Shown in pieces: positions 52,901 through 55,900 of a stretch of 64,000 bases of DNA. Each line of letters opens with the position of its first letter. The first letter of the stretch is position 1. The stretch is from Bolinopsis microptera. Taxonomy: Eukaryota; Ctenophora; Tentaculata; Lobata; Bolinopsidae. The stretch is from contig NC_087082.1 of assembly GCF_026151205.1 (NCBI RefSeq), forward strand, positions 11,541,997-11,605,996. The letters are read 5' to 3'. The position numbers and the translations under genes are program-made. The notes below the pieces were generated by a model. The model made no database searches, was not told where the DNA came from, and worked only from the letters and a program-made list of their open reading frames with translations.

Positions 52901-55900
52901 TGGCCTTGACCTAGAGGCCCTAGTTGTGCGTTGTTCTACTTGGGTTGTATCGAGCACAAACTCAAGTGACCGCGGAGCCCCTATTGAGTAAGTGCAAATG
53001 GAGCTAGACTGTGATATTATTAGGTCTTCATCGTCTTTATGGAGGCTTAACTTAGCTTGCTGAGTGTCGTACCTAGTAACAAGGCAAGCATCCATGTTGT
53101 TGGTGGTGGAGGGGAGGTCATTAATAAGTCCCATCAACTTAAAGATGCTAGGGAAGTTGTTGATGGGATGTGGCTTGTTAACTATGTTACCAAAGCAGTA
53201 GTCTTCTGATGAAGGGCTTAGCCATAGGGTGTGGACTTTTTTAGATTTGCCTTCAAGATTCATTGAATCTAATTCTTCTGTGATTTTCTTGAATAGATTT
53301 TCATCCATTCCAGGGAGGACTGGAACGTGCTCTACGAGCGCATGTGGGCTATACGAGACATTTTGAACAGTAGTTTCCTTCTTCGTTTTCTTTTCCTTCT
53401 TCTTTTCATCTATACGTTCTATTTTAGAAGCAAGCTTTTTCTCTTTCAGACTGTCCAGGATACTCTGAGTAAGGAGGGTATGCATGTGTTGCTTTACTTC
53501 AAGAGATAAGTTTTGCAGTAAGGCGAGGAAGTTGGCGGGCAGTGTTGGCATCTTGTTGTGAAGTGTGGGAGGATCGGGAGGAGACTGGGTGATCCGGATA
53601 AGAGATCAACAGCAGGATGTTTCAGTGGCACCGTTGTAAACCCTAGCAATCTGGATCTCGTACCAGACCGCAGGAGCCCTGGTAGTACAAGACTACCAGG
53701 GCAATAGGAAGAAACGATTACCACCTCCACAACCTGCCATCTAACTCAGATCCATCACACCCAGGACACCGGCAGACTTTACTCCAACGGATTACTCATC
53801 GGTAGCCATGCCTAAAATTATTTGTTATATAGTAGTGTTGAAAGTATTAAAACACTTAGTTTGATTGGTAAGATGGCCTAGTTGATATTCGAATTCCGGA
53901 GAGCCACGAAACCCAGCCTCCTATTATGTATCACAAAAGAGAGACACCGCTAAATATCGATTCATCTCACTCTCAGTTTATGTCTAAATAATTGTTCCTC
54001 GCCCAGCTACGATATTATACTTTTTTTCTAATTTCTAATTTTCTTATTTTAATTTTCTACGATATATTGTACTATTGTACTGGTAGAGCAATATTATAAT
54101 TATCTCTAATTATCTTATAGGCAGATGTTACCTGGGGACTCCAGGCTATTATAATTATGTTCATAATCATAGAGATTTGGCGGAATGACAGGTTGAGCGC
54201 CGCCCAGTAAAGGCAGATGTTGTCGATATAATTGTGGGTTTTCAAGGATCTATCAGTTTGCAGCTCATTTATTTCACCAGACAATCGTGAATTATCCGGA
54301 AAAGCAGCCCCTCTCCTGGATTACAAATAATCTGGCACTTAAGGAATAAGGATCTTCTAACTTATACTCATCATAATCCATCTATTATTCTTTTAGACAC
54401 GTTGCGAGGTTATTATAGATAGTGGGGGCGGCCGGCGGAGCCTCCAATTACTTTTTCTATTGTCATTGACGTATTTCGTGGCCAAGGTGTGCTTGCTTTA
54501 AAATCTAAATTTTAAATCCTGACAAACCGTGTTAAAGTATTCTGGTCTATTCTGGCGGTACCTCTCTGCGATCTCCCTGGTTGTAACCACGCCTGCTATT
54601 GGGTGACCGTTGCCCATGGGTTTACCAATGGTAACAATATCCGGCACCACACCTGTGAGATATAATCCATCAATATCCGGCACCACACCTGTGAGATATA
54701 ATGGTAACAATATCCTGCACCACACCTGTGAGATATAATGGTAACAATATCCAGCACCACACCTGTGAGATATAATGGTAACAATATCCGGCACCACACC
54801 TGTGAGATATAATGGTAACAATATCCGGCACCACACCTGTGAGATATAATCCATCAATATCCGGCACCACACCTGTGAGATATAATGGTAACAATATCCT
54901 GCACCACACCTGTGAGATATAATGGTAACAATATCCGGCACCACACCTGTGAGATATAATGGTAACAATATCCGGCACCACACCTGTGAGATATAATGGT
55001 AACAATATCCGGCACCACACCTGTGAGATATAATGGTAACAATATCCAGGCACCACACCTGTGAGATATAATGGTAACAATATCCGGCACCACACCTGTG
55101 AAATATAATCCATCAATATCCGGCACCACACCTGTGAGATATAATTAACAATATCCGGCACCACACCTGTGAGATATAATAACAATATCCGGCACCACAC
55201 CTGTCAGATATAAGTAACAATATCCGGCACCACACCTGTGAGATATAATCCATCAATATCCGGCACCACACCTTGTGAGATATAATGGTAACAATATCCG
55301 GCACCACGCCTGTGAGATATAATCCATCAATATCCGGCACCACACCTGTGAGATATAATCCATCAAAAGAGGCAGAACAGTGAGCCATATCACGGCTCTA
55401 GCTATAATAAAGTTTATATTACTATCAGTGAATTAGAAACATTGTTTTTGGAGAGGTGTGGGCTTAAAGCGTCTCAGCTCTAGCCTTTAATCATTCTAAT
55501 CTGATTACGAGCTGATTCAGATTGCACTTGCCACTTAATCACTCTACACTTCAATGTCGGGATTTTTCGGAAGTTGAAATCAGCTCGGATCACCATATTT
55601 CTGAACGCTGTTTTAGTATCACTCCAGATGACATAGGTTTAAAATTCTTCTCTGACGAGTGAAGAAGTAGTTAAAATTTCAAGTTAGGGCAAGGATTTTG
55701 GCAGATGCTTGGATTAGGGCGGGTTCAGGGTTTTGGGTTCTCCGTCAGCGGTCAGAGTCACGTCATACTGTCATTTTCTAAAAGTGGATCTTAAGGGGGC
55801 CGGGGGTATTCATCAAAAATCTCTCGAAATTGACTTTATAACTGTTTCTGATAGAGAGGAGTGATATCTATCAGCTACTTTTGGTCCCATGGAAAAATAT

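Follow-up and report, generated by a model that had tools for sequence, protein, structure and literature searches.

A twenty-copy minisatellite across an intron-exon border of a phospho-lyase-like gene in the ctenophore Bolinopsis microptera

Minisatellite-like tandem duplications of intron-exon boundaries, named 'mirages', have been described in the amphioxus genes Adh3, BflGb6 and BflGb9 (PMC3087553), a set to which TnC has been added and to which repeats in PGBD5 have been likened (PMC3902484). In BflGb6 the duplicated segment comprises an intron's 3' end and the beginning of the exon that follows, with six and three units in two haplotypes (PMC3087553, 2010), and RT-PCR together with the Adh3 data suggested that regular mRNA splicing is undisturbed (PMC3087553). 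Short units at a splice border are also known from humans: the 31-bp VNTR of CBS, c.1444_1467+7(16_21), places 16-21 units across an exon-intron border, each with 24 exonic and 7 intronic nucleotides by its name (PMC2630376), and the 25-bp VNTR of ABCA7 includes the exon 18 splice donor, one retained unit shifting the frame and array length reportedly affecting splicing (PMC5954066). In human UBC, AGGT at the repeat junctions forms dual-specific sites and whole units are removable as introns (PMC10809524). Finally, the Rogers model of intron gain by tandem duplication, with its 24-bp case in fission yeast, derives GT...AG units from a duplicated AG|GT (PMC4974935), and repeats located at exon-intron borders are described as forming new introns in human duplicated genes (PMC2812944).

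Here we describe an array of this sort in a 64,000-nucleotide stretch of the genome of B. microptera, a lobate ctenophore (contig NC_087082.1; hereafter the window). Using a 330-aa join of exon translations, we found the deposited 470-aa B. microptera protein P0001, 'alanine--glyoxylate aminotransferase 2-like isoform X2 [Bolinopsis microptera]', all 470 residues of which map exactly to 12 minus-strand exons with 11 introns and a terminal TGA. Within the few bases tried around the exon matches, each of the 11 introns has one GT-AG solution. Exons 1-3 lie past the high end of the window; the others, all on the minus strand, are exon 4 (63573..63732), exon 5 (62597..62671), exon 6 (60654..60747), exon 7 (58447..58560), exon 8 (57593..57675), exon 9 (57089..57183), exon 10 (54528..54652), exon 11 (41724..41878) and exon 12 with the stop codon (40670..40907). 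P0001 carries an Aminotran_3 domain (PF00202, E 1.6e-71 in Pfam), and the best alignment of the exon 10 piece is with ethanolamine-phosphate phospho-lyase (PDB 6TOR, E 1.5e-12) and includes a K that we take to be the PLP lysine. Judged from its sequence, this phospho-lyase-like gene looks intact.

Intron 9 spans 2436 nt, begins at the donor CAAG|GTAACA that ends exon 9, and holds the tandem array (54627..55359, minus strand), which by Tandem Repeats Finder and a listing of its units comprises 20.1 copies with 20 acceptors and units of mostly 36-37 bp (34-38). Tandem Repeats Finder reports a period of 37, 92% matches and a score of 1217, far above chance, and a second row with period 184 and 4.0 copies, about five units each. 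A search of the species' own genome with 203 bases including units returned at least 10 matches, all at the array locus, such repeat counts being lower bounds. On the minus strand every acceptor AG is followed by GTGTGG (19 of 20) or GCGTGG (one), and exon-like sequence starts at 55345 for the most distal acceptor and at 54652 for the most proximal. All 19 units between the acceptors end in AG and 18 begin with GT, so that 18 of 19 are potential GT...AG introns by virtue of their AG|GT junctions.

Two unit types make up the array: fourteen units are of an A type, nominally 37 bp and in reality 34-38 bp, and five of a 36-bp B type that stands at both array ends (units 1 and 19). Exact prototypes recur in interspersed order (6 A and 4 B of the 19), and five units depart from the 36/37 lengths (34, 35, 35, 38 and 38 bp). 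In the A type 26 nt match the exon and 14 nt the intron end, overlapping by ATT; in the B type 18 nt match the exon and 21 nt the intron end, overlapping by TTG, so both junction types share a 3-nt overlap. The simplest account would be two separate duplications, each at 3 nt of microhomology, and the order with B first and A later would be the simpler one. The initial annotation had proposed that a minisatellite multiplied the gene's own 3' splice site 20 times, and this is borne out by the 20 acceptors and by units that span intron end and exon start. Its 37-bp unit corresponds to the A type and misses the second, 36-bp type, while its figure of some 21 exon bases per unit gives way to 26 nt (A) and 18 nt (B).

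The two ends of the array differ in what they adjoin. Copy 1, the distal acceptor, has its last intron base at 55346 and its first exon-like base at 55345 (minus strand). It lies 693 nt from the proximal acceptor and is alone preceded by the pyrimidine tract CTGTTCTGCCTCTTTT (55365..55380, minus strand), seen on comparing the copies, and by a branch-point candidate CTCAC (55380..55384, minus strand) whose A stands at -36, a match to the consensus only. The longest pyrimidine run is 8 nt before copy 1 vs 3-4 nt before the other copies, and the best 16-nt window holds 14 pyrimidines there vs 9-11 for copies 2-20. Because the clearest tract and this CTCAC precede copy 1 only, we take the distal end to be the native intron side. 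The native exon side is the proximal end, where copy 20, unlike all others, continues into the exon. Thus the proximal unit, a B-type copy, was rightly named as the real exon boundary insofar as its acceptor (54653/54652) yields P0001, whereas the native intron side belongs to the opposite end, whose pyrimidine tract the initial annotation overlooked, as it did the AG|GT junctions. Twenty copies therefore extend over a real exon-intron border, with native intron on one side and native exon on the other.

This arrangement is shared with the amphioxus mirages, which are likewise boundary duplications with many AG/GT units (PMC3087553, PMC3902484); the differences are a ctenophore host, another gene, 20 copies vs 6 and 3 in BflGb6, two short unit types, and knowledge of the array from sequence alone. 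The human CBS and ABCA7 arrays are similarly short-unit repeats at a splice border but multiply the donor side rather than the acceptor, that of ABCA7 being intronic. The junctions (AG|GT in 19 of 20, AG|GC in one) resemble the dual-specific sites of UBC, where the units are 228 nt, coding and in frame; here they are 36-37 nt, mostly out of frame and partly intronic. Intron gain models share the duplicated AG|GT and differ in outcome: P0001 requires a single intron separating exons 9 and 10, which the array lengthens at its end, and we rejected the idea of a new intron at a new position. A search of the literature by titles and abstract beginnings, mostly without ctenophore as a term, returned no ctenophore mirage in print; as far as this literature goes, the array would be a known kind of structure in a new phylum. 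Boundary-spanning minisatellites would thereby be extended from amphioxus to a ctenophore, and by analogy with the amphioxus cases the gene likely splices normally.

An open full-length protein results from only four of the 20 acceptors, giving 470 (native), 482, 519 and 568 aa; the three non-native ones lie one unit upstream (+12 aa), four units upstream (+49 aa) and eight units upstream (+98 aa). The other 16, the distal one included (stop at residue 376), lead to premature stops. The initial annotation had stated that no frame of the unit has a stop, which holds for pure A units and fails for B units, in one frame of which there is a TGA. Its prediction of a 37-residue in-frame peptide from an acceptor three units upstream has to be abandoned: that acceptor (54762) adds 110 nt, not 111, and runs into a premature stop. 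Reading the whole array as a coding exon was likewise rejected, the 693 nt being 0 mod 3 but containing one TGA (stop at residue 376), in a frame that depends on an uncertain assembly.

At the protein level P0001 carries no insert at the exon 9/exon 10 junction, and four other ctenophore-like relatives (P0002 of Mnemiopsis leidyi and P0003-P0005) run straight through it. The array peptide (residues 306-520) had no match at E 0.001 among 7994 scored candidates with lengths of about 386-1226 aa. Use of the copy 19 acceptor (A type; first exon-like base 54688, minus strand) would add 36 nt, or 12 aa, in frame; as this copy is of the A type and scores above the native one (4.1 vs 1.8 in the 16-position matrix below), a 482-aa protein can fairly be predicted from sequence as a minor form. 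No separate 482-aa entry appeared among the best 120 of the 7994 candidates (lengths of about 181-577 aa), where one of the three members of the 90% cluster is shown; a small insert could be present in another member of that cluster, and the name 'isoform X2' implies that a second isoform exists.

To compare splice-site strength we used acceptor and donor matrices built from ten introns of the gene. By a 16-position matrix with leave-one-out scoring, the array acceptors reach 0.9-4.1 vs 1.4-12.0 for the 10 other acceptors, and 12 of the 14 A-type copies (3.6-4.1) outscore the proximal B-type copy (1.8); among 2183 intronic AGs the array copies fall at the 66th-90th percentile and the 10 real acceptors at the 72nd-100th. 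By this matrix the array acceptors appear weak but not out of range. A 21-position matrix gives the array copies -3.5 to 3.0 vs 8.7-17.4 for the 10 other acceptors, the latter scored with themselves included, and a generic acceptor matrix gives 5.2-11.0 for the array copies vs 3.7-8.3 for the others. As the three matrices disagree, no winning copy can be named. As a potential donor, the junction AAG|GTGTGG reaches 6.5, compared with 5.8 for the native donor of intron 9 and, under leave-one-out scoring, 3.1-7.9 for the remaining 10 donors of the gene; re-splicing after a wrong acceptor choice is plausible because this donor score is like that of real donors. Folding lent no support to an RNA structure, the array strand being less stable than 20 of 20 shuffles (z +2.8).

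We favor the reading, with a probability of about 0.65, that the array is a neutral mirage inside intron 9, in which splicing uses the proximal one of twenty near-identical acceptors. The initial annotation had left neutrality, a decoy and a length-variable switch open; the evidence leans toward the first, because P0001 has no insert, the array peptide finds no match, 16 of the 20 acceptors are non-productive, the sampled part of the genome is rich in minisatellites (see below) and regular splicing is reported for the amphioxus precedents. Two tandem duplications across the intron 9/exon 10 border, both based on microhomology, one with the TTG overlap (B) and one with the ATT overlap (A), would have given rise to a minisatellite that then expanded to 20 copies while remaining passive within the intron. 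Exon 9 would be joined to the proximal acceptor (54652) to give the normal 470-aa enzyme, and occasional use of an upstream copy would lead mostly to premature stops, or to a minor form lengthened in frame by 12 residues. Units wrongly retained could still be removed as an intron, nearly every junction being AG|GT. Against the neutral reading stand the higher acceptor scores of most A-type copies relative to the proximal one, the pyrimidine tract that favors the distal copy, and a genome sample that yielded no second mirage; the deposited gene model, too, may rest partly on prediction.

The strongest rival, though an unlikely one, is stepwise splicing, in which the distal acceptor is used first, the AAG|GTGTGG junction so formed acts as a donor, and one or more further steps take out what remains of the array down to the proximal acceptor, leaving the same final mRNA. 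It draws on the tract (14 of 16 pyrimidines) and the CTCAC at -36, both found at the distal copy only, on the AG|GT junctions, on a regenerated donor comparable to real ones and on the tandem AGGT sites of human UBC, which work both ways (PMC10809524). However, the gene's 10 other introns do no better than the array copies, with best 16-nt windows of 9-12 pyrimidines and runs of 3-6, and three of the 10 have no yUnAy match in the scanned stretch; since these introns lack a strong tract, the argument that splicing starts from the distal copy is weakened and the tract is perhaps dispensable. Moreover, copies 2-20 have CTCAC or a closely similar motif 38-42 nt upstream, derived from the preceding copy's own acceptor, and B-form copies have an additional TTGAT at -18, all of these being consensus matches. 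Direct use of the proximal acceptor is also simpler, and the donor and acceptor matrices come from just 10 introns. A more elaborate form, which we regard as speculative and rather improbable, is a splicing ladder entered at the distal copy and re-spliced down the AAG|GTGTGG junctions to the proximal exon; expansions would then be harmless, and array length would set a delay or a non-productive leak.

It is doubtful that the array acts as a length-variable switch, its length setting the share of non-productive transcripts and hence the enzyme level, as a parallel to the ABCA7 VNTR would have it. The premature stops from 16 of 20 acceptors would provide the means, and human VNTRs at splice borders that affect splicing are known (PMC5954066), but the splice core, compared by eye, is conserved no better than other parts of the unit, with GC for GT at copy 2 and an A inserted before copy 3.

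Misassembly, which was earlier named as a finding that would undo the array, is very improbable as the source of its existence, given exact prototypes that recur in interspersed order and flanks that run into native intron and exon, while the off-length units and the published assembly, made with wtdbg, gap closing and pilon polishing (PMC10232365), mean that copy number or unit indels, in a collapsed or expanded array, may be wrong. We infer that this published B. microptera assembly is the genome analyzed here; if it is the same, single-base indels in the array, and hence its frames, may be wrong. Copy number and indels are thus provisional.

The genomic setting was assessed in 20 stretches of 10 kb (200 kb), one per Mb of the same chromosome, leaving out the one at 11.5 Mb near the window. 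This sample holds 16 minisatellite arrays (unit 15-100 bp, at least 5 copies) covering 5.1% of bases; the window holds three by the same definition, covering 2.1%. With minisatellites this abundant, some splice-border arrays are to be expected. Thirty distinct open reading frames overlap 15 of the 16 sample arrays, and in a Pfam scan of all 30 at E 0.01 four had matches. Those to Extensin_1 and Collagen fall below the curated cut-offs, that to HemolysinCabind lies right at it, and the fourth frame matches both WIV_dom_3 and EpuA, where WIV_dom_3 lies above its own cut-off but no single stretch passes. We take these four as repeat-driven, none suggesting a split exon. No second mirage emerged among the 30 frames, a weak negative, as short exons would escape a Pfam scan. 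Two sample arrays are very long (L017:5146-8208, 96 x 32 bp; L028:2904-4589, 105 x 16 bp).

The locus provides a natural competition experiment: 20 near-equal acceptors stand in series, flanked by a single clear pyrimidine tract on one side and a single exon on the other. It raises the questions of how the spliceosome chooses among serial copies and how such expansions survive. Iso-Seq libraries have been made and used to annotate B. microptera (PMC10232365), so the answer may be within reach.

Several other features of the window were recorded. Intron 9 also contains nested inverted repeats (55790-56403) with arms of 86, 26, 83 and 32 nt that are 88-97% complementary, perhaps a foldback or MITE-like element. 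A perfect GA dinucleotide run of 385 units (16641-17410) is unusually pure and could be a gap-filling artefact. On the minus strand, an open frame of 1107 aa (48528-51851) encodes an endonuclease and a reverse transcriptase domain (RVT_1 E 3.2e-30) and is, by these domains, a LINE-type element inside intron 10. Next to it, an open frame of 521 aa (52040-53605, minus strand) carries a GDSL lipase-like domain and is possibly an accessory retroelement protein. A 621-aa open frame (44169-46034, minus strand), with no Pfam match at E 0.001, resembles a Penelope-type reverse transcriptase by eye. Arrays of 254-257-bp and 69-bp units at 34396-35644 and 37797-38435 are rich in GCGCTTATAAGCGCTT palindromes and lie in opposite orientation in the two places.
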